Of a stretch of DNA of 50,089 nucleotides, positions 11,439 to 31,073 are shown piece after piece; position 1 is the stretch's first letter, and each line of letters opens with the position of its first letter. The position numbers and the translations under genes are program-made. Under the pieces are notes generated by a model that was not told where the DNA came from, searched no databases, and saw only the letters and a program-made list of their open reading frames with translations. Source of the stretch: an uncultured beta proteobacterium (lineage in GTDB: Bacteria > Pseudomonadota > Gammaproteobacteria > Burkholderiales > Burkholderiaceae_A); NCBI GenBank assembly GCA_902586195.1, contig CACIGF010000005.1, positions 1-50,089 on the forward strand, read 5' to 3'.

Positions 11439-13184
11439 CTAAATTAATTTTTTTAAAGCCGATAATCGATCTATATCATTTAGCGTCTTGTCGAGACGAA
11501 TTCTTCTCATCCTGGGGAATCTTACCGAAATTCCAGATTTATGCCTTTTGGATTCTGATATAGAATCAAAAAGTAACTCCACTATGATTTCTGGCCGAAC
11601 CTTTTTTACAGGACCATAACTTTCTTCTGTAATCTTTTTAATTTTCCTATCAATCACTTTAATATCTGAATTGGATAGCCCTGAATATGCCTTAGCAAAA
11701 GGTACTAATTCTTCAGTCTCCTTTTCATCATTAAATATGGCAAATGTGTAATCGGAAAAAATACCGCTCCGAATCCCGTGACCCTTTTGTGCATAAATTA
11801 TAACTGCATCTGCACTAAGGGGATTCATTTTCCATTTAAAGCTATCGTAGCCAGTTTTACCCTTTGTTCTTCCAACACTATATTGGCCATTCTTTCTTTT
11901 TAACATCACTCCTTCTGAGTTATTCTGCCGAGCACTGATCCGTTTTTTATCGATTTCTATGGGAGACAGATTGATAAAAATCGGTGAGAGCATAAACTCT
12001 TGCTCTGTCAAGCGCTCTTTAAATAATTTTTCTAAAATTATTTTTCTATTTTTTAAAGTATCAGATCTCAAGTCTTGACCTTTCAGACTTAAAATATCAT
12101 ATGCCATGAAAATTACCTTATCAAAACCATCATCATTCTCTGATTTCAATTTAGGTTTTTTTCTACTCAAAATTCTTTGGATTGACGAAAAGTTTTTAGG
12201 TTTGTTCTTTTTAAAATCCCAAACAAGCAATTCTCCATCTAAGATAACATCTTCATTTAAACATTTATTTGCCGCAGCAATTAACCCGGGGAATTTTTCT
12301 GAGACAAATTCTTCTCCTCTTGTCCAAAGTTGTATATCTTTTTCCTGTGTCTCTATATTAATTTTTACTAGTAATTGTATTCGTATACCATCCCATTTCC
12401 ATTCAACGATCCAGTTCTCTGGTCTGTATAATCGAAGAAAATCATCTTTTATTTGATCCGACAGGTTTTGCGATAAATAGAACGGAAAAGGGATAGCAGT
12501 ATTCATATCCAATTTAAAGGTTCTCTGTTCGCTCGGCAACAGTTCTGAGAAAAGGTACTTAGCAACTTCGACATTCGCATAATTCTGTTTAAAAAATACT
12601 ATCAATCTGGAGGCGATTAGCTCTTTATCAACACCACAAATCTCCGAAATTGCCTGCGTAACCTGCAGCCTTGAAACACCAAGCCTAAAACCACCAGTGA
12701 ACATTTTACAAACGGTGAAAACATAATAGAAACTTTTGTTCTCAAAATCCCGTGTTAAAAAGTTTATTTTTTTTCTTTCATCTGCATTTTTTATCTCCAT
12801 AAAGCTTCGAATCTTTTTGTGCAATGAAACAGAAAAATCATCGTTGATTTCTTTTTTATCACATACCAGGTGAGCTATTGTCTCCGCCAAATCTCCTACT
12901 GATTCATAGCACTCATCAAATAACCATTGCGGCATATTCGTTTTTCTTATGGTACATATTTTCAATAATTTAGAGCTGAAAATTCGATTGAGCTTTTCTC
13001 CTGAAAGAAGGTATATTGCCCAATAAACTGAGGACCATTCATCTTGATTTTTGTTGAGGTTTTTCGCCGTATTTTTGTTTTCTAATGGAAGAGAATATTC
13101 GAAATATTCCTTGATAAGATTTTTTTTTTCAAGAATGCCTAATGCCTGATCAAGGCTTCGTATTAGTTTTACGAATTGAATCAT
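11439..13184 (-). CDS. ATP-dependent DNA ligase (LigB/cisplatin-type, exonuclease-associated)
   Basis: Seals DNA nicks using ATP; an accessory to the NAD-dependent LigA expected elsewhere. The 581 residues comprise an N-terminal helical DNA-binding domain (about 1-215), the nucleotidyltransferase domain with adenylation motif EWKWDGIR (Lys263), motif III near DGELLVWD, motif IV EGVMLKR and motif V FKWKMNPLSADAVIIYAQ, then an OB-fold domain ending in PRMRRIRLDK. This is the bacterial type that occurs beside a beta-CASP exonuclease, as here, separated by a single base. The two other usual partners, an Lhr-type helicase and a metallophosphoesterase, are absent from the window. Confidence 0.92.
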   Translation of the reverse strand: MIQFVKLIRSLDQALGILEKKNLIKEYFEYSLPLENKNTAKNLNKNQDEWSSVYWAIYLLSGEKLNRIFSSKLLKICTIRKTNMPQWLFDECYESVGDLAETIAHLVCDKKEINDDFSVSLHKKIRSFMEIKNADERKKINFLTRDFENKSFYYVFTVCKMFTGGFRLGVSRLQVTQAISEICGVDKELIASRLIVFFKQNYANVEVAKYLFSELLPSEQRTFKLDMNTAIPFPFYLSQNLSDQIKDDFLRLYRPENWIVEWKWDGIRIQLLVKINIETQEKDIQLWTRGEEFVSEKFPGLIAAANKCLNEDVILDGELLVWDFKKNKPKNFSSIQRILSRKKPKLKSENDDGFDKVIFMAYDILSLKGQDLRSDTLKNRKIILEKLFKERLTEQEFMLSPIFINLSPIEIDKKRISARQNNSEGVMLKRKNGQYSVGRTKGKTGYDSFKWKMNPLSADAVIIYAQKGHGIRSGIFSDYTFAIFNDEKETEELVPFAKAYSGLSNSDIKVIDRKIKKITEESYGPVKKVRPEIIVELLFDSISESKRHKSGISVRFPRMRRIRLDKTLNDIDRLSALKKLI

Positions 13185-13185
13185 T

Positions 13186-14184
13186 TTAGTTACTATTTGC
13201 GAGGGTTAGATCACTTGTTCCAACCCCTCTTTCCTCAATATACTTTCGAAAAACATTTGATTTTCCGTGTACAGTGATTACATTTTCTGGTTCTGTTAGT
13301 TCAACTAATCTGTTTAGTTCATTCCAATCTGCATGATCCGATAGAACAAATCCTTTGCAGCCTGTTTCTCTTCGTCTGTTTCCTCTAACTGCCATCCAAC
13401 CAGAAACTACCGCTTCAATACAAGGCTTACAATTACCAATTATTTTTGTAGCCTTCACACTCGGCGGTAATAAAATGAGGGTAGAGTCTTTAACTTCCTT
13501 ATGTGGAGAAAAAGTAGAATGATCTGGAAAATCGATTCCGTGATGTTTATAGATATTATTGATAGCCGAGATACTTGGATGTACCTTTATACTCCCAGGA
13601 AATGTGGATGTTCCGAAATACCTTTTTATCCCATGTAAGATTCTTTGAGATTTCCCTAGGGAATAACAATATAAAACTAAGTTCATTTTTGTTTGTTTGC
13701 AATTCTCCCACAATTGGAAAATTTCTTTGAAAACCTTTAATTCATTTCTCCAACGAAATATGGGTAACCCGAATGTAGATTCCATAACCAATACATCGGT
13801 TTTTATCGGCTCAAAAGCATCACAGGAAGAATCTTCAGCCAATCTGAAATCCCCAGTATATAACCACCTACGACCCTTCGCTTCTAAAAGTATTTGTGCA
13901 GCCCCAAGAACATGACTCGCAGGATACAATGTTAGCTTGATATCACCGATCCTTATACTTTTCCTAAAATTTAATGATTGAATACTCTCAAATTTTACTC
14001 GATGACGAATAATCTTTTCTGACCTATTAGAGCAAAGAATCTTTTTATGTCCGTTTCTCGAATGATCTGCATGACCGTGAGAGATGACTGCATTTTCTAC
14101 CGGCAATATAGGATCTATATAAAATCTGCCCAATGGACAGTACATCCCTTCCCTGCGAAATACAATCAATTCGTCATTTTTCAT
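13186..14184 (-). CDS. Ligase-associated DNA exonuclease (metallo-beta-lactamase/beta-CASP fold)
   Basis: Predicted SNM1/Artemis-like DNA nuclease that would trim ends before ligation. The metal-binding signature is SHGHADHSRNGH (His36, His38, Asp40, His41), with further motifs in YPASHVLGAAQILLE and YTGDF and the beta-CASP part with CYSLGKSQRI; the C-terminal metal-site region reads FVLSDHADW and VHGKS. The 332 residues fit the ligase-associated group. Its ATG overlaps the nudB stop in an ATGA arrangement (14181-14184) and the ligase follows after one base, so translational coupling from nudB is expected. Confidence 0.9.
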   Translation of the reverse strand: MKNDELIVFRREGMYCPLGRFYIDPILPVENAVISHGHADHSRNGHKKILCSNRSEKIIRHRVKFESIQSLNFRKSIRIGDIKLTLYPASHVLGAAQILLEAKGRRWLYTGDFRLAEDSSCDAFEPIKTDVLVMESTFGLPIFRWRNELKVFKEIFQLWENCKQTKMNLVLYCYSLGKSQRILHGIKRYFGTSTFPGSIKVHPSISAINNIYKHHGIDFPDHSTFSPHKEVKDSTLILLPPSVKATKIIGNCKPCIEAVVSGWMAVRGNRRRETGCKGFVLSDHADWNELNRLVELTEPENVITVHGKSNVFRKYIEERGVGTSDLTLANSN

Positions 14185-21347: not shown

Positions 21348-22796
21348 TCATGGAGTCGAAAGGAATTTATTTATTGCCTCAGCGGCTTTTCTTCCTTCCC
21401 TAATTGCCCAAACAACCAAAGATTGGCCTCTTCTAACATCCCCAGCTGCAAAAACATTTTTTCTATTTGTTTTGTAAGAATCCAAACCATTGTCACTAGC
21501 CTTAACGTTTCCTCGACTATCCTTTTCCACTTGAAAATCTGCAATAAGGCTTTGGGTTGGCGACACGAATCCCATTGACAACAATACTAAATCTGCTTGA
21601 TAAATCTTCTCAGAACCGTCAACTTCAGAATACTTACCATTTTCCCAGATCAAGCTACAGGTTTTCACTGCCGTGACTTTTCCATTTTCACCCATAAACT
21701 CTTTCGTAGCCAAAGCGAACTGCCTTTCGCATCCCTCTTGATGACTAGATGAAGTCCGCAATTTTTGCGGCCAATATGGCCAAGTTAGACCTTTATTCTC
21801 TTCCTTTGGAGGCTGCGGCATTAACTCAAATTGCGTTACTGATTTTGCTCCCTGCCGGTTTGAAGTCCCAACACAGTCAGAACCAGTATCCCCCCCTCCT
21901 ATAACAACAACGTGTTTGTCTTTTGCAGATAAAGAGTCTTCCAATTTGTCACCGGCACAAATCATATTCTGCAAAGGAAGAAAATCCATAGCAAAGTGGA
22001 CTCCAGATAATTGCCTACCTGGGACAGGAAGGTCCCTTGGTTGCTCAGCGCCACCTGCAATTAAAACGGCATCAAAATCATTCTCTAGGATCTCGGGACT
22101 CATAATTTTACCCGAGAAATTCTTTGCATCTTTTTGACTGATCTTTCCCACTAAAACACTTTTTTCAAAAATAACACCTTCCTTTTCCATCTGATTTATC
22201 CTACGGTCGATGTTGTACTTTTCCATTTTGAAATCCGGGATCCCGTATCTCAAAAGACCTCCGATACGGTTACTTTTTTCAAAAATTACTACAGAATGAC
22301 CAAGTCGAGCTAGTTGTTGACCTGCCGCCAAGCCTGCTGGGCCTGAGCCAACAATTGCAATCCTCTTCCCTGTCTGTAATTTCGGAATTACGGGTTTAAC
22401 CCAACCTTCACTCCAACCTCGATCAATGATTGCTTGCTCAATTGATTTTATTCCTACTGCTTCACTATTAAAGTTTAAGGTGCAAGCTGCTTCACATGGT
22501 GCTGGACAGATTCTTCCTGTGAACTCAGGAAAATTATTAGTGCTATGTAAAACTTCCAACGCCGTTTGCCAATCGGAATCCATAACTAAGCTGTTGAAGT
22601 CTGGAATGACATTGTTAATTGGGCAACCATTATTACAAAAAGGAGTCCCACAATCCATACATCGGCTCGCCTGGAGCCCAGCCTCTTTTTCTGACAAAGT
22701 TTTTACGAATTCTTTATAATGGTTAACTCGCTTTTCCGGATTCTCGGACTTTTGCTCTACTCTTTCTAATTCTAGAAAACCAACAGGATTTGCCAT
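21348..22796 (-). CDS. gltD: Glutamate synthase [NADPH] small subunit GltD
   Basis: Beta subunit that passes electrons from NADPH via FAD to the large subunit. The N-terminal cysteines [14 protein letters not shown] (Cys46, 49, 54, 58) are the expected iron-sulfur ligands. The FAD Rossmann loop is [12 protein letters not shown] and the NADPH loop [12 protein letters not shown]; near the C-terminus [18 protein letters not shown] is conserved. The 482 residues are typical. It begins 16 bases after gltB and ends 20 bases from the convergent uvrA stop. Confidence 0.97.
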
Positions 22797-22812: not shown

Positions 22813-25800
22813 TCAATGTTTGGCTAGTTTAGAAATTTTTTTGTCATTTCTAGACTCACTTAGTTCAATTAGTGCTCGTTGGTACTCTTTTGGAAAAACT
22901 TTTACAAAGTGATTTAGTTCTGAGCTCCAATTTTTTAGTATTTTTTTTGCCAACTGGCTTCCAGTATTTTTATGGTGTTCTTCTACTAATGTTTTCAAAA
23001 TAATTTCGTCAGGTTCACCTTTGTGCCAAAGGTCTCTACTTAAAGTACTGTCCTGAATATTTTTTGGTTCAACTGATACGAGGTCCACCATTGACTGATT
23101 ACATCTGGCAATAAACTTTTTATCAGTGTTATAAACATAAGCTACACCCCCAGACATTCCAGCTGCAAAATTACGGCCCGTCTCTCCTAAAATAACTACC
23201 GTCCCTCCAGTCATATACTCACAGCCATGATCGCCGACCCCTTCCACAACAGCCTCAGCTCCGGAAAGCCTTACACAAAATCTTTCACCAGCGACACCGG
23301 AGAAAAACGCCTTACCAGAAGTTGCTCCATATAAGACTGTATTTCCTACTATGATATTGTCTTTTGCAGGTCCAACAAATTCCCTAGAAGGCTTGACAAT
23401 TATGGTGCCCCCTGACAACCCTTTTCCTGTGTAGTCGTTAGCTTCTCCAGTGAGGTCCAATGTAACTCCATTAATGAGAAAAGCGCCGAAAGATTGTCCA
23501 CCTGTTCCTTCGCATTTGACATTCAGATTCTTACCTAAATCGAACAAACTTTTCCCAAACTTACGAGCTACATAACCAGAAAGCATTGCTCCGACTGTCC
23601 GGTTTATATTCTTAACTGGCTTTTTAATCTCAATATTTCTAGTCTTGTTATTGATGGCCGATTGCACTTCTGAAATTAGATCATTGTCGAGAGCTTTCGA
23701 GAGCGCATGGTCCTGAGCAGTAGTGTGTTTTCTATTCTCCTGATCTATATTTTCTGGGACATAAAAGAGTTTTGAAAAATCGAGGCCTTTCGCCTTCCAT
23801 GTAAGGATGGCATCATTGGTTCGTAATAAATCAGCTCTTCCTATCAATTCATCCAGTGTCTTTGCGCCGAGCTGGGCCATGATTTGCCTTACTTCTTCCG
23901 CGACAAAGAAGAAGTAATTTACAACGTGATCTGGAGTGCCTGCATATCTCTTTCTGAGTTCCGGATCCTGAGTTGCTATTCCAACAGGACAGGTATTTAA
24001 ATGACATTTTCTCATCATAATACATCCTTCAGCAACAAGAGGAGCAGTTGCAAAACCCATTTCGTCGGCTCCGAGTAATGCAGCAATAACAACATCGCGT
24101 CCAGTTTTCATTTGACCATCCACTTGAACCTTTATGCGACTTCTTAAACCATTAAGAACGAGGGTTTGTTGCGTCTCTGCCAAACCGATCTCCCACGGCG
24201 ACCCTGCATGCTTGATGGAAGATAATGGTGATGCACCGGTTCCTCCATCATGGCCTGCAATCACAACATGATCAGCTTTCGCTTTGGAAACACCAGCTGC
24301 AACGGTTCCAACTCCAATTTCCGAAACAAGTTTAACGGAAATATCTGCTTTGGGAGAGACGTTTTTAAGATCATGGATAAGCTGGGCCAGATCTTCAATT
24401 GAGTAAATATCGTGATGAGGAGGAGGCGAAATTAAGCCTACTCCGGGAACAGAGTATCGTAAAGACCCAATATACTCTGATACTTTCCCCCCAGGCAATT
24501 GCCCGCCTTCCCCTGGCTTTGCACCTTGTGCCATTTTGATCTGTATTTGATCAGCAGAGGAAAGATACTCGGTTGTAACCCCAAATCGACCCGAAGCGAC
24601 CTGTTTTATTTTAGAACGTAAGCTATCATTTTTTTTAAGAGGAAAGTCCGATTTAATATCAGCGTTTTTGAGTCTAAACGAGAGCGTTTCTTTGTCACCA
24701 GAGACTTTCTTATCGTATTCACCACCAAACATATAACGATCTCTATCTTCACCGCCCTCGCCAGTATTTGACTTTCCTCCTAGCCTGTTCATGGCGACAG
24801 CAAGAGTTGTATGAGCCTCAGTTGAAATAGAACCCAATGACATAGCCCCAGTGGAAAACCTTTTTACAATCTTCTCTACAGGCTCAACTTTATCAATTGA
24901 GATAGCCTTTGATGGATCTACTTTAAAAGAAAATAAACCCCTTAACGTCATATTCCTCTCGCTCTGATCATTAATAATCTGAGCATATTGCTTATAAGAC
25001 TCCCACTGATTGCCTCTGACTGCATGCTGAAGATTGGCTATTGCATCTGGCGTCCACATGTGATTTTCCCCGCCTATCCGCCATTCATATTCTCCGCCTG
25101 AGGATAAGACTGAATGAGCATTACTTTCTCGATCCTTAAAAGTGTCATGATGGAGCTTAATCATCTCTTCGGCCAGTTCAAAGATTCCTACTCCTCCTAC
25201 AGCACTCGACGTACCCCTAAAATATGTCCCAACAATCTCTTCTGATAGCCCAACTGCTTCGAAAATTTGTGCGCCACAATAGGACATATAAGTTGAGATA
25301 CCCATTTTTGACATGATCTTCATTAAACCCTTTCCAACTGCCTTTATATAATTTTCTACAGCACGATCTTCACCAACCTGGGATGCAACGAGATTTGAAT
25401 TGTGCGAAATGGTTTCCAACGCTAAGTACGGATGAATAGCCTCTGCCCCGTAACCCGCTAGAACAGCGAAATGATGAACCTCTCTTGCTAAGCCTGTTTC
25501 AACCACTAATCCAGTTGAAGTACGCAAACCCTCCTGAACCAAATGTTGGTGAATCGCCGATAAGGCCAATAAAGAGGGAACAGCAACATTTTCTCTCGAC
25601 ACTCCCTTATCGCTGATTATTAAAATATTATAACCGTCCTTTACGGCATCAGCTGCGTCAGCACACAAACTGGATAGTTTTGCCTCAACACCAGCGCTCC
25701 CCCACGAGACTGGATAACAAATATCTAAGGTATGAGATTTGAATTTTCCATTAGAGTGAACAACAATATTATTAATTTTGTTCATATCTTTGAAATTCAA

Positions 25801-27522
25801 TATCGGCTGTGCAACCTCAATTCTCAAGGGAGGATTTGTTTGATTGATATCGAGGAGATTTGGTCTTGGTCCTATAAAATTTACTAGCGACATTACTATT
25901 GCTTCCCTGATCGGATCTATCGGAGGGTTAGTCACTTGCGCAAATAGTTGCTTAAAATAATTGAATATTGGCTTACTGCGACTAGATAAGACTGCTAAAG
26001 GCGTATCGTTACCCATTGACCCTATTCCTTCCTGGCCAGTGGAACACATCGGAGTAAACAAATACTTAATGTCCTCTTTAGTGTAACCGAATACCTGTTG
26101 CTTTTCGGATGTTGAAATACCAACATTCCTTTTTTGTGTTTTCTCCTCAGAGGCCTTTATGTCACCCAATTTTAAAGTCAGATTTTCTATCCAATTTCTA
26201 TAGGGTTTCTGTTTAGAGATACTCTCTTTTATCTCGTCATCGTCAATTAATCTTTTTTCCTCAAGATCAATAAGAAACATTTTACCTGGCTGCAACCTCC
26301 ATTTTCTGACAACCCTATTTTCGTTTACTGGCAAAACTCCTGTTTCGGAGGCCATGATAACTAGACCATCATCTGTAATACAATAACGCGAAGGCCTCAG
26401 CCCATTCCTATCGAGAGTGGCTCCTATTTGTTTTCCGTCAGTAAATACGATCGAAGCTGGACCGTCCCATGGTTCCATCATCGGAGCATGATATTCATAA
26501 AACGCTCTTCTAGTCTCTGGCATCGACTCATTTTGTTCCCAGGGCTCAGGAATCATCATCATCACAGCCTGCGCAAGAGAGTATCCTGATGCAACGAGAA
26601 GTTCTAAACAGTTGTCAAAGACAGCGGTATCAGACTGGCCGAAGTCGCAGACCGGGTAGAGCTTTTTTAGATCATCACCAAAATAGGGAGACGCCATAGA
26701 GCCTTCTCTTGCCTTTAGCCAGTTAAAGTTTCCCTTAACTGTGTTTATCTCGCCATTGTGGGCAATTAATCGGAACGGCTGAGCGAGGCTCCATTCAGGA
26801 AAGGTGTTTGTTGAGAATCTTTGATGGACTAAAGCCAGTGCTGACGTGACATTTTTGTCCGTTAAGTCAGAAAAATATGCTCCTACTTGATTAGACAGGA
26901 GGAGGCCCTTATAGAGAACTACTCTGCTTGATAAGGAGCAAAAGTAAAATTCTCTTCCATGTTTCAAATCCAACTTGTTTACATCATTACTTGCGATCTT
27001 TCGAATTACCATGAGTTTACGTTCGAAAGCATCTTGAACAAAAATATCCGAACCCCTGCCAATGAAAACTTGCCTTATAACTGGTTCTTTTTCTTTCACT
27101 CTTGGCGACATAGGAATAGTGCTATTAACCGGCACGGTTCTCCATCCCAATAAAATTTGTCTTTCCTCTATGATCGCTCGTTCTATAGCCCTTTCACAGG
27201 CCAATCGCGCACCCTGCTCTTTAGGCAAGAAAACCATACCAATACCGTACTCTCCCTCTGCAGGGAGAGTAACCCCATCGAATGAAAGCTTCTCGCGAAA
27301 AAACTTGTCGGGGATTTGTAACATAATGCCAGCACCGTCTCCCATAAGAGGGTCTGCTCCAACGGCTCCTCGATGTTCTAGATTTTCAAGAATTTTCAAA
27401 CCGTCAAGAACAATTTGGTGTGTTTTTTCACCCTTAATGCTCGCTATAAAGCCAACTCCACAGGAATCATGTTCGTATTGGGGATTATATAGTCCAGCAT
27501 TTTTTTTTCTTGAAAAATTCAT
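22813..27522 (-). CDS. gltB: Glutamate synthase [NADPH] large subunit GltB
   Basis: Makes two glutamates from glutamine and 2-oxoglutarate, the ammonium-assimilation partner of glutamine synthetase. The N-terminal class II amidotransferase exposes Cys21 (HDSCGVGF) after removal of a short propeptide. The central and FMN-binding synthase domains follow, with [11 protein letters not shown], the loop [13 protein letters not shown] and the 3Fe-4S cysteines in [14 protein letters not shown]. The C-terminal beta-helix domain has repeated Gly-rich turns (about 1270-1500). I chose ATG 27522; a GTG two codons upstream (27528) is also open. No strong ribosome site is visible at either. Confidence 0.97.
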
Positions 27523-27555
27523 AATCACACTAAGTCATTCAATTTTTGGCCTTTT

Positions 27556-27584
27556 ACTATAAACTATTTTTAAAAAGGGGTCAG
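27556..27584 (-). promoter_or_regulatory. Possible gltB promoter
   Basis: On the minus strand CTGACC (27579-27584) and TATAGT (27556-27561) are 17 bases apart, giving a leader of about 25 bases before gltB. The -35 hexamer lies within the GGGGTCAGA-type element noted at 27577-27585. Matches are moderate (4 and 5 of 6), so this is a prediction from sequence only. Confidence 0.45.
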
Positions 27585-27599
27585 AACAATCTTGCTTTT

Positions 27600-27626
27600 T
27601 AGGTGCAATATAATTAATCGCACCTA
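27600..27626. repeat. Small inverted repeat between the transposase-like gene and gltB
   Basis: TAGGTGC (27600-27606) and GCACCTA (27620-27626) form a perfect 7-bp stem around a 13-base AT-rich loop. It lies 6 bases past the stop of the transposase-like gene. On the minus strand it is followed by A-rich sequence, not a T run, so a normal intrinsic terminator for that strand is not supported. It could be a remnant REP-like end of the transposase-like element, or a binding site. Confidence 0.5.
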
Positions 27627-27631
27627 TTTTA

Positions 27632-28291
27632 TTAGGGGATTTTCGTACCGCTTTTTAACCATGGCAACCCTCTATTTATACATCGGGTAATTTCTTTTAC
27701 CACCATTTGCGCCTGCGGTTCAGATAAAAATTTTTTATATTTGAACTGCCGTTCAAACGGAGTATTACCCAAACCCCAATAAGATGGTATTGGTGAAATA
27801 AAGTTTCTGAACTTTTTCTTATTAATTATGTGATTAGTTCCCGAAAATACTCCACAGTAATGAGCACAAGTGGACCAACCCCACTCGATTTCATTATTGG
27901 TTAAGCCACTCGTTTTTGATAATTGATCTAAATATTTCTGTGCGTTTAACTCTAAAACAGGATTTCTGTCCATCCAATAAGATTTGTATCGACCATCCCA
28001 GAGTGTCCCAGTCCTTCCCCAACGTTGGTTGAAATAACGGACATATTCCCTTCCCACTGACTGGACTGTTAATGCAATAGAGTTTTCTTCATGTGGTGTA
28101 AATAGCCAATGTGCCTCATGTTGTAACAGTTGAAATGCGTGTATTGCCGCTTTGTACCTTACTCCTCCTTCAAAAACTACCATAAGGTATGTTTCTCTAT
28201 CTTTATCATCAAAAAATATATCAGAACCATTATGTCCTCGCTGTACTACATAGTGAACCTTACCTTTAGATATTGTTCGATTTAGTCTCAC
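27632..28291 (-). CDS. Transposase-like protein of the Y1/REP-associated tyrosine transposase family, HUH motif damaged
   Basis: 219 residues related to RAYT proteins. Family features are VHYVVQRGHNGSDIFF near the start, FNQRWGRTGTLWDGRYKS (87-104), the helix with the nucleophile KYLDQL (Tyr120) and LGNTPFERQ (174-182). The expected HUH pair reads HEAH (58-61), so by alignment the first catalytic His is Glu59 and only His61 remains. The GTG start lies inside dgt, overlapping its end by 26 bases, so the gene is embedded in the aroK-aroB-dgt transcript. This looks like a settled, probably domesticated gene, perhaps without transposition activity. An alternative is a slowly decaying element. Confidence 0.8.
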   Translation of the reverse strand: MRLNRTISKGKVHYVVQRGHNGSDIFFDDKDRETYLMVVFEGGVRYKAAIHAFQLLQHEAHWLFTPHEENSIALTVQSVGREYVRYFNQRWGRTGTLWDGRYKSYWMDRNPVLELNAQKYLDQLSKTSGLTNNEIEWGWSTCAHYCGVFSGTNHIINKKKFRNFISPIPSYWGLGNTPFERQFKYKKFLSEPQAQMVVKEITRCINRGLPWLKSGTKIP

Positions 28292-29459
28292 GCCATTTGC
28301 CCCAAAATAAAGGGTCTTGCCACAAATCTTTATCAGGAAAAAACTGCTTGTGTAGCTTAACTGCTGAACTGTCAGTAAGGCCAGCTATTTTGTCAGCTAC
28401 AGATCTCAAATGCTTTATAGGATCTTTATCTTCGGAATTCTCCTCGTTGAAAAATAAAGAAAATAAGTCTTCAATCACTATTTCAGCAGCATCAGTCAAT
28501 GCCTTGACTTTTGGATTTTTATATAACCTGCGCATTAAAAAAGTTTTTAATTCTCGAACATTCTCTTTCGTTTTTGGTGAAAACGAAACAATTTGACTAG
28601 CACTACTCCTTACGTCTGTTAATGAAGTCACTGCAAAAGATAAAACATTTTTTTTTGTTTGGTAAACCAAATCTTCAATTTGAGAATTAATCATTCTTCG
28701 AATAATTTCAGAATTTACTCTCGATTTATCCAATAATTTAGGACTACTTAGTGAAAGTACCTCTTTAGCTGCATTCTCAGCTGCTTTTAAGGCGAGAATT
28801 TCTTCAATAGTTATCAGACCTGACCTCAGCCCATCATCTAGGTCGTGATGATTATAAGCAATTTCATCGGCGATATTTGATATTTGAGCCTCTAAACTAG
28901 GCTGTCCACCAAAAACAAATCTGTCTGCCACAGCTCCAAATTTAGGAGCTATTTTTCTTGAGCAACGTTTCAATACACCTTCTCTTGTCTCAAAGCACAA
29001 ATTGAGGCCATCGTATCCAAGATACTTTTTTTCAAGCTTATCAATTATCCTAAGACTTTGGATGTTGTGTTCAAATCCGTTTGACTTTGGGTTCATTTCT
29101 TTCAAACAACGATTTAATGCTGTCTGCCCTGCATGGCCGAAAGGAGTATGTCCCAGGTCATGAGCGAGACAAAGTGCCTCTGTTAAATCTTCGTTCAAAG
29201 ACAATCGTCTCGAAGAAGCTCGTGCGATCTGAGCAACTTCTATACTGTGTGTTAGTCTTGTTCGAAAAAGATCTCCCTCATGACCAATAAAGACCTGTGT
29301 TTTATACATTAACTTTCGGAAAGCTCCACTATGAATTATACGATCGCGATCTCGTTGAAACTCGGAGCGCCCATGTGTTTTTTCTCCCTCAAAAAGCCGC
29401 CCTTTCGTTTCTGAAGATTTACATGCGTATGGTGCTAGATTGCCCTCTGTATCAAACAT
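28266..29459 (-). CDS. dgt: Deoxyguanosinetriphosphate triphosphohydrolase-like protein
   Basis: HD-domain enzyme that cleaves dNTPs to nucleosides and triphosphate, tuning dNTP pools. The metal-binding residues are in RTRLTHSIEVAQIAR (His71), CLAHDLGHTPFGHAG (His100, Asp101) and the later ADEIAYNHHDLDDG. The N-terminal KGRLFEGEKTHGRSEFQRDRDR region is typical of the dGTPase type 2 group. The 397 residues fit that group rather than the longer E. coli Dgt. It overlaps aroB by 8 bases and the transposase-like gene by 26. Confidence 0.93.
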   Translation of the reverse strand: MFDTEGNLAPYACKSSETKGRLFEGEKTHGRSEFQRDRDRIIHSGAFRKLMYKTQVFIGHEGDLFRTRLTHSIEVAQIARASSRRLSLNEDLTEALCLAHDLGHTPFGHAGQTALNRCLKEMNPKSNGFEHNIQSLRIIDKLEKKYLGYDGLNLCFETREGVLKRCSRKIAPKFGAVADRFVFGGQPSLEAQISNIADEIAYNHHDLDDGLRSGLITIEEILALKAAENAAKEVLSLSSPKLLDKSRVNSEIIRRMINSQIEDLVYQTKKNVLSFAVTSLTDVRSSASQIVSFSPKTKENVRELKTFLMRRLYKNPKVKALTDAAEIVIEDLFSLFFNEENSEDKDPIKHLRSVADKIAGLTDSSAVKLHKQFFPDKDLWQDPLFWGKWRETKSNNI

Positions 29460-30540
29460 AAGTTAAAAATTCCGAAATCTCCTCCGGCACAAAACCTTTG
29501 ACCAACGAATTGCCAATACCATCCAACAATATATAATTTATTCGATTATTTTTATTCTTTTTGTCCTTCTTCATTAAATTTACGAATGTCGAAATATCAA
29601 GTTTTGGTGATTCTATCGGCAAATCCATAGACTCCAGAAGATTTTTAATTCTGACAACATCGTCTTCCTTGAGCAAATCCAATTTCTGTGAAAGCAGAGA
29701 TGCTAACACCATACCAAATGATACTGCCTCTCCGTGCAACCAATTTCCATAACCACAGCCACTTTCTATCGCGTGCCCGAACGTGTGTCCAAAATTTAAT
29801 ATCGCACGAATTCCTGATTCTCTTTCATCTTGTTCAACAATACTGCTTTTTATCTCGCAAGATCTTCTTATTGCATACGCTAAATGTTCTAGAGACTTAG
29901 ACATTATCGACATCGAATTCTGTTCCAACCACTCAAAAAATCTTATGTCTCTTATACATCCATATTTTATGATTTCTGCAGCACCTGCAGAAAATTCTCT
30001 TTCATTCAACGTATCTAAAGTCTTGATGTCGATAACAACTGCTTTGGGTTGATAAAAAGACCCTATCATATTTTTACCGAGAAAATGGTTCACCCCTGTT
30101 TTGCCACCAACACTCGAATCAACCTGTGACAATAAAGTAGTTGGGACTTGAATAAAATCAATTCCTCTTTGATAGACGGAAGCCACAAAACCAGCTATAT
30201 CTCCAATAACCCCACCCCCTAACGCAATTATTACAGTGGAGCGATCTAAATTTTTCTCGAGCATTTTGGACACGATCAACTCAACATTACTCAATTTCTT
30301 CTCTTGTTCACCCTCAGGAAGATTTATTACGATATAGTTTGAATTGGTTTTATCTAAGGAACTAGTAACTAAAGAAAGATATAAATCGGAAACAGTGCTG
30401 TTTGAGATAATCACTGCATTTCTACCGGCAATAAACGGACAAACTTCATTTAAGGAGCCTAAAAAATTATAGCCGATCGTTATAGGATAACTTCTTCCGG
30501 ACAATCCTAATACTAATTCGTGAATAAATGGGGGCTTCAA
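29452..30540 (-). CDS. aroB: 3-Dehydroquinate synthase AroB
   Basis: Second step of the shikimate pathway: converts DAHP to 3-dehydroquinate, using NAD and zinc. The NAD-binding loop is ALGGGVIGDIAGFVASVYQRG, followed by QVPTTLLSQVDSSVGGKTGVNH and the zinc-ligand region ILNFGHTFGHAIE. The 362 residues are normal. The start is TTG at 30540, supported by AGGA 7 bases upstream. It follows aroK by 14 bases and overlaps dgt by 8. Confidence 0.97.
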   Translation of the reverse strand: MKPPFIHELVLGLSGRSYPITIGYNFLGSLNEVCPFIAGRNAVIISNSTVSDLYLSLVTSSLDKTNSNYIVINLPEGEQEKKLSNVELIVSKMLEKNLDRSTVIIALGGGVIGDIAGFVASVYQRGIDFIQVPTTLLSQVDSSVGGKTGVNHFLGKNMIGSFYQPKAVVIDIKTLDTLNEREFSAGAAEIIKYGCIRDIRFFEWLEQNSMSIMSKSLEHLAYAIRRSCEIKSSIVEQDERESGIRAILNFGHTFGHAIESGCGYGNWLHGEAVSFGMVLASLLSQKLDLLKEDDVVRIKNLLESMDLPIESPKLDISTFVNLMKKDKKNKNNRINYILLDGIGNSLVKGFVPEEISEFLTYV

Positions 30541-30554
30541 ATTATATTCCTTTC

Positions 30555-31073
30555 TTAAATGTATCTTTCTACCCTCAAAACATTAACAATTTTTGATGTC
30601 AGGGCGCGCAAGGTTAAATTCTCTCCAGATACTACAAAATCAGCAAGATCTCGATATATAGGATCGCGCTCTTCAAATAAGACTTCTAACTTTTCCCTAA
30701 CATCAGTTGAGGCTTGCAAAAGCGGTCTAGAATCATCATGTTGCAGTCGAGCCCATAAAGATTGAGGCCGTACATAAAGATATATCACAAATCCCTTACT
30801 CAAATATTTCCGGTTCTTTTCTAAAGTAGGTGCTCCCCCTCCTGTCGCGATGATCTGTTCACCCCGATTCATAACCATCTCAATTACTTTTTTTTCCCTC
30901 AAACGAAATCCTTTTTCTCCTTCAACCTCAAAAATGACGTTTACAGACGTCCCGCAATTTTTTTCTACCAGACTATCAGTATCAACAAACTCCCAACCAA
31001 TTTTTTGAGAAAGTCTTCGTCCAACAGTCGTTTTGCCTGCCCCCATTAATCCAACAAGTATTATGTTTTTCAT
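30555..31073 (-). CDS. aroK: Shikimate kinase AroK
   Basis: Phosphorylates shikimate at O3. Walker A is GLMGAGKTT (8-16), the shikimate-binding acidic pair is in FVDTDSLVE, and the glycine triplet appears in IATGGGAP. The 172 residues match the family. It is the first gene of the minus-strand run aroK-aroB-dgt-transposase-like-gltB-gltD and is divergent from mrcA across 55 bases. In related genomes pilMNOPQ lies between; here it is absent. Confidence 0.96.
   Translation of the reverse strand: MKNIILVGLMGAGKTTVGRRLSQKIGWEFVDTDSLVEKNCGTSVNVIFEVEGEKGFRLREKKVIEMVMNRGEQIIATGGGAPTLEKNRKYLSKGFVIYLYVRPQSLWARLQHDDSRPLLQASTDVREKLEVLFEERDPIYRDLADFVVSGENLTLRALTSKIVNVLRVERYI

Follow-up and report, generated by a model that had tools for sequence, protein, structure and literature searches.

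A gene of transposase origin that is kept upstream of gltB in part of the Burkholderiales quite probably encodes a regulator of gltB(D). The gene lies in the window, the whole stretch of 50,089 nucleotides analyzed here, and comparison of the locus across related genomes points to a domesticated HUH transposase, most copies of which are catalytically dead, with a candidate recognition site at the predicted gltB promoter. The former transposase kept beside gltB probably acts as a gene switch. The features of the window that bear on this reading are as follows.

21348–22796, minus strand: gltD, following gltB in the same orientation (ORF; also follows gltB in L032, which is MED-G174 and contains L004, and in L033, which is AH-736-P17 and contains L003).
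22813–27528, minus strand: gltB, the proposed target gene (ORF; matches in relatives).
27556–27561, minus strand: predicted gltB -10 element, TATAGT (promoter scoring).
27572–27584, minus strand: conserved site CTGACCCCTTTTT, the terminal-repeat motif GGGGTCAG read on the opposite strand (comparison of relatives).
27601–27625, no strand assigned: hairpin AGGTGC...GCACCT of the earlier note on this DNA, stem 27601–27606/27620–27625 (not seen in L003 or L004).
27632–28291, minus strand: RAYT-derived protein, 219 amino acids, GTG start, HUH lost, Tyr120 kept, NP motif lost (ORF, Pfam, alignments).
27932–27934, minus strand: Tyr120 codon, aligned with the catalytic Tyr (alignment; coordinates derived from the ORF).
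28109–28117, minus strand: E59-A60-H61 codons, where the HUH pair is altered (alignments; coordinates derived from the ORF).
28266–29459, minus strand: dgt (dGTP triphosphohydrolase), overlapping the RAYT gene by 26 bases (ORF, NCBIfam).
29452–30540, minus strand: aroB, overlapping dgt by 8 bases (ORF; neighbors in relatives).
30555–31073, minus strand: aroK (ORF; neighbors in relatives).

The names gltB, aroB and aroK follow the usual naming of these families. The gltB start lies 103 bases downstream of the RAYT gene, and no RNA element in Rfam matched 27400–28400. Elsewhere in the window, two adjacent ORFs at 11439–14184 on the minus strand look like genes for a DNA ligase of the ATP-dependent type and for a ligase-associated exonuclease.

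The ORF is full length and starts inside the end of dgt, as the earlier note had described. Single-sequence models recognize its product only faintly: Pfam Y1_Tnp gives 18.5 bits (cut-off 23) and NCBIfam REP_Tyr_transpos gives 18.2 (cut-off 80). Y1_Tnp is matched at E 0.01 by 15 of 22 aligned sequences, the window protein included. The profile built from these 22 sequences retrieves the E. coli RAYT/TnpA_REP structure 4ER8 (E 2.4e-5), the closest solved structure, and the first HUH His in this alignment is occupied by the Glu of E59-A60-H61, which bears out the previous reading of the pair as Glu-Ala-His. A PDB search with the window protein alone returned weak, unrelated matches only, and PHROGs returned no match. 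The AlphaFold2 model has a mean pLDDT of 58.1, with residues 11–110 at about 65–90, and was used for the core only, the C-terminal half being disregarded. Foldseek aligned the core of this low-confidence model with IS608/ISDra2 TnpA and 4er8 (TM to query 0.38–0.45). By these comparisons the window protein is a RAYT/TnpA_REP (Y1 HUH) protein by descent with a homologous Y1 core fold.

The protein departs from the enzyme it descends from. The tyrosine helix and other family blocks had been thought intact, which holds for Tyr120 in its alignment with the catalytic Tyr; the N-P that follows the Tyr in the class 2 enzyme pattern Y---NP is gone (KYLDQLS) and the C-terminal GRP motif is missing. IS200/IS605 elements are mobile and multicopy; the window gene holds the same place across families and is the sole PF01797 match in its own assembly (1.13 Mb, 70.7% complete), which does not agree with many near-identical copies in this genome. 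The association of RAYT genes with REPs or terminal repeats is present here in the second form, a GGGGTCAG-type terminal-repeat motif adjoining the gene. Going by shared features, not by the profiles of PMC6006769, the window protein is probably a subclass 2.1 RAYT. It shares with this subclass a homologous core in a protein of about 240 amino acids with a C-terminal extension, and the subclass is common in betaproteobacteria and not tied to REPs (PMC6006769). It differs from the subclass as described there in that the window family lacks HUH, NP and often Tyr, occupies a fixed place before gltB and has its site tied to a predicted promoter.

Relatives carry the same gene beside gltB, the place where the earlier note suggested looking for it. 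In f1, the family of the window, an orthologue is found in 21 of 26 genomes, in every case flanked by gltB and, on the opposite side, by aroB or dgt. In two congeners, G004 and G007, dgt abuts gltB with no RAYT gene between them, and the gene is therefore dispensable there. The other f1 genomes without it are G003, which shows no gltB, and G005 and G025, whose contigs end at gltB. Outside f1, 27 of 100 Burkholderiales loci, from eight families, have a RAYT gene less than 5 kb upstream of gltB and oriented like it (f3 3/3, f4 4/5, f8 5/5, f10 3/6, f31 5/5, f32 1/1, f49 5/5 and f50 1/1). The remaining families among these 100 loci had no RAYT gene within about 5 kb upstream of gltB, and f19 was added as a RAYT-bearing family by later matches. 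The 100 loci are the best-scoring of 176 non-f1 genomes with a gltB match, the 76 outside the survey include many with gltB about 40% identical, and counts over related genomes are non-independent. The distance from gene to gltB is within 600 bp in 25 of the 27 loci. In the other two, L068 (G080) and L078 (G077), the RAYT gene lies about 3.8 kb and 1.5 kb away from gltB, respectively, and the intervening DNA contains no exact site. Beyond the RAYT gene, aroB/dgt is not a constant neighbor in non-f1 loci; L052 and L060, for example, have mrcA. In the protein tree f1 is monophyletic (100/99), and inside it g1, g2 and g3 are each recovered as a group. Judged from its conserved placement, the window gene is no stray insert.

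Catalytic residues are lost in most copies of the protein. Among 48 copies (21 from f1 and 27 from outside it), the HUH pair is present in 14, the catalytic Tyr in 20 and both in 12, and these 12 may still be able to cut DNA. None of the 21 f1 copies has HUH and 4 have Tyr, the other 17 having lost it as well. The Glu whose conservation the earlier note had asked about occupies the first HUH position in 20 of the 21 f1 members, the second His is retained in 20, and the catalytic Tyr position is Tyr, Phe, Ala or Trp. The HUH replacements in other families differ (RIL, QAL, RVQ, AVH and others), and the tree requires at least eight switches between both-intact and not, counted without assigning direction. 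Other parts of the protein are held. The C-terminal W-x-x-G-N-T-P-F-x-R block hardly varies across the alignment. The GRP motif at the C-terminus, a tail we take to be AT-hook-like, is found in 44 of 48 copies; the window, L003, L004 and L078 lack it.

Purifying selection on the gene was gauged by dN/dS on stop-to-stop frames, which include some non-coding codons; at most six pairs were listed per group, saturated pairs carry no value and gltB and aroB were partial. In the pairs listed, RAYT values in f1 overall are 0.03–0.14, similar to dgt and aroB. Within g1, the clade of the window, the pairs listed give 0.086–0.137 for RAYT against 0.091–0.114 for dgt, with aroB above (0.162–0.192) and gltB below (0.036–0.044). 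RAYT values are 0.081–0.138 in the g2 pairs listed and 0.027–0.082 in five of the six pairs listed for g3, the sixth being saturated. All 21 f1 genomes with the gene have a RAYT match free of internal stops. Lost catalytic residues, weak family scores and absence from two congeners are what a decaying pseudogene or an annotation artifact would give, but open frames throughout f1 and constraint like that on dgt and aroB make such an account barely credible.

The region between the RAYT gene and gltB holds the sequence TCTGACCC(C/T)(A/T)(A/T)TTTA, the terminal-repeat motif of the family. The copy in the window is the sole CTGWCCCYWWTTW match in its assembly, and its CTGACCC core (27578–27584, minus strand) recurs in relatives. 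CTG(A/T)CCC on either strand occurs in 41 of 46 gene-gltB regions shorter than 700 bp (the 48 loci minus L068 and L078) against 1.39 expected from dinucleotide shuffles, and in 21 of 21 f1 loci. The five regions without the exact core comprise four with variants (L049, L065, L070 and L075) and one with none (L064). The L075 variant is weak by the scored pattern. By eye, L075 (G119, f4) contains several GCGTCCC copies, some in each orientation, next to a RAYT that is catalytically dead, as though site and protein had changed jointly. Across f1, the seven core columns of the site are invariant, the next nine are AT-rich at 0.8–1.7 bits and those further out are mostly below 1 bit. The site was found upstream of 1 of 73 gltB genes without a RAYT gene (none in the fetched upstream stretch) against 3.18 expected, and the lone match lacks the AT-rich flank; these controls span 200 bp, and 4 of the 41 positives (L017, L020, L076 and L079) have the site beyond 200 bp. 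The site is also absent upstream of gltB in G004 and G007. Upstream of gltB these loci (L040 and L041) still have a CAAAAATAGT stretch and a TATATT resembling the -10 region in the clade of the window, with the gene and CTGACCC missing, a natural case of loss.

Spacing between the site and the predicted gltB promoter is fixed within clades. Promoters were predicted by scoring against a matrix of approximate E. coli frequencies, and the spacing windows, which differ between clades, were chosen after inspecting the promoter scores. Outside f1, the best predicted -10 lies 42–43 bp from CTGACCC in 14 of 14 loci (0.32 expected), these being the 14 that contain exact CTGACCC among 25 non-f1 regions. 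The predicted -35 starts 18–20 bp from the site, and the distance from site to gltB in the same 14 loci ranges from 62 to 365 bp. In g2 and g3 of f1, the best predicted -10 is at 73–75 bp in 14 of 17 loci (0.54 expected), the exceptions being L017, L018 and L024. The four g1 loci have the predicted -10 at 23 bp, which places the site over the -35, and in the window CTGACC occupies the -35 position with a 17-nt spacer to the predicted -10. The shift from 42–43 to 73–75 bp corresponds to about three helical turns and that from 42 to 23 bp to roughly two. The arrangement is the one expected of a site-specific transcription regulator, a conserved site at fixed spacing from a target promoter, with the promoters being predicted. 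Several loci have a second site 46–49 bp further upstream.

The pattern CTGTCCC N40-44 CTGACCC N11-13 TTG N20 TA was searched at any position in 399 Burkholderiales genomes. It gave 13 matches, and the reversed control gave 0. All 13 are directly upstream of gltB, and 8 of the 13 genomes had not been used in deriving the pattern, which is strict and recovers only 5 of the 27 known non-f1 RAYT-gltB loci. A RAYT gene is adjacent in 10 of the 13, and HUH is intact in 8 of those 10. The strict layout is therefore no mark of dead copies and came with catalytically intact ones.

Selection for a function other than transposition, as the earlier note proposed, is supported by the conserved place, the low dN/dS, the catalytic loss in several families and a site that has been retained along with the gene at a set distance from the predicted gltB promoter. 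The nucleic acid-binding role it suggested fits the co-retained site; the part that did not stand is the target, which appears to be a terminal-repeat motif and not a REP hairpin. The hairpin in 27571–27627 was rejected as the target because neither sister genome, L003 or L004, shows it.

In some lineages the motif has copies besides the gltB-side one. The gltB-side copy is present in 41 of 48 loci and 21 of 21 in f1, and an opposite copy upstream of the gene, counted as an exact heptamer within 250 bp, in 11 of 48 and 4 of 21, respectively. Both sides are occupied in 9 of 48 loci, and the window has the gltB-side copy only, unlike a TIRYT with terminal inverted repeats on both sides. G032 (f8), in which the RAYT is intact, contains 47 matches to the extended motif CTGWCCCYWWTTW, the reversed control giving 7. 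Inverted pairs about 35–45 bp apart are frequent among the matches listed (for example C1:168460–168518 and 231642–231690) and look like a REPIN-like population of terminal-repeat dimers. Among the genomes with intact copies, dispersal is clear in G032 only; it is hinted at in G212 (11 motif/4 control), G076 (8/3) and G027 (5/0), and no dispersal was seen in G055 (3/2), G073 (2/0), G098 (0/1), G171 (3/2), G186 (1/3), G201 (1/0), G210 (2/1) or G215 (1/4). Dispersed copies as an f1 regulon were considered and are unsupported, matches away from gltB numbering 22 against 20 for the reversed control in 21 genomes.

The dispersed inverted pairs of G032, the 12 copies with HUH and Tyr and the intact HUH in adjacent strict-pattern copies are what would be expected of a RAYT still useful in nucleic acid processing, which would act on single-stranded terminal-repeat DNA with the gltB-side repeat as the element end. 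This is an unlikely explanation, since in f1 HUH is gone from every copy and Tyr from most, the upstream end is mostly missing, the gltB-side end is invariant and matches away from gltB stay at control level.

Three genomes of one f19 genus, g114, separate the sites from the gene. In G237, G294 and G322 (L191–L193), a two-site gltB promoter lies beside an argJ-like gene, with no adjacent RAYT. The RAYT gene follows aroB-dgt elsewhere, about 730 kb from gltB in G237 and on different contigs in G294 and G322. Its HUH and Tyr are intact by eye and NP is changed to EP. No CTG(A/T)CCC occurs within 400 bp downstream of this RAYT gene; two of the three genomes have bare heptamers further on, at +437 and +1214. 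The sites therefore travel with the moved gltB and not with the RAYT gene, so that any use of them by the protein is in trans. That the sites follow gltB also argues against the processing of an element end.

This unlinking is also what would be seen if the sites belonged to an unrelated gltB regulator and the RAYT gene were a neutral or differently used neighbor. Such an account is improbable. TIRYT genes associate with terminal repeats holding GGGGWSAS, and the repeat motif here, GGGGTCAG or GGGGACAG, fits this consensus (PMC3733652). The motif also flanks the gene in some loci and is dispersed in G032; at gltB it is nearly confined to loci with a RAYT gene, and G004 and G007 lack both motif and gene. 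The spacing between site and predicted promoter is fixed whatever the distance to gltB, as it would be if gltB needed promoter DNA carried by the element, with the protein kept by linkage only. Linkage leaves the dN/dS of the HUH-less protein unexplained and the RAYT gene is retained where gltB has moved away, and an outward promoter is a very unlikely explanation.

Control of gltB by the RAYT-derived protein could have arisen as follows. At an early stage, in some of the Burkholderiales, a RAYT/TIRYT-type HUH transposase would have taken up its place upstream of gltB, and its gltB-side terminal repeat would have become part of the gltB control region. This region often has two CTG(A/T)CCC sites 46–49 bp apart, the near one 42–43 bp before the predicted -10 in most non-f1 loci. 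The protein would still recognize its old terminal repeat and so control the glutamate-synthase genes gltB(D). The arrangement is also found with catalytically intact copies and therefore predates catalytic loss. Once recognition and not cutting mattered, HUH and Tyr could go while the protein, the site and the spacing stayed, because selection would act on recognition alone. We infer that the protein binds the site and that in vivo this happens on the promoter DNA. For the sign of control we lean toward activation because most lineages have the site upstream of the -35 and several f1 loci have a poor -35; in the window, where the site is over the -35, repression would be as likely. Characterized RAYTs act on single-stranded, strand-specific hairpins (PMC8266576), and duplex binding is therefore an assumption. 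Either duplex binding would have been gained or the protein would act on transiently open DNA. The GRP tail would suit duplex binding, as would the AT-rich sequence flanking the site; the window's own clade lacks the tail. In its broader form, the proposal is that a class of transcription regulators arose from HUH (Y1) transposases, in which the terminal repeat became the gltBD operator, catalysis was lost in several lineages and the product is a one-target regulator of ammonia assimilation that also works in trans. This seems to us somewhat more plausible than its contrary.

We know of no homology between TldR proteins and the RAYT-derived protein at gltB. TldR proteins are RNA-guided, originate from TnpB and have lost nuclease activity. 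They offer a likeness, a mobile-element enzyme that lost catalysis and turned regulator, whereas the gltB protein descends from Y1 HUH enzymes and would recognize a fixed DNA sequence. PMC13418256 describes TldR proteins as transposon-derived regulators. Repeats that fit the TIRYT consensus can disperse, as in G032, and the gltB locus shares this with TIRYT/TIRtrons; the TIRYTs aligned in PMC3733652 keep HUH and Tyr, whereas the gltB copies are often catalytically dead and have one repeat at the promoter. REPIN-RAYT systems (PMC3116915, PMC8049555) likewise have low-copy RAYT genes kept over long times and are tied to dispersed REPIN populations, in contrast to the f1 site, which is at gltB and elsewhere at control level only. 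Among the top-ranked open-access results, no description was found of a RAYT gene at gltB or of such a gltB regulator in Burkholderiales.

Quentin et al. 2018 dropped sequences without HuH or Y as likely non-functional, reducing 924 to 722, and regarded class 2 as patchy with transfer favored (PMC6006769). The gltB locus looks like an exception to both views on present comparisons, and the sequences lacking HuH or Y that the survey set aside may include selected genes. RAYTs have been called domesticated transposases, and the gltB locus makes a host function directly testable. One locus presents a natural series from catalytically intact to dead copies with a candidate recognized sequence at one predicted promoter, and the Burkholderiales that carry it would have a gltB regulator of transposase origin.
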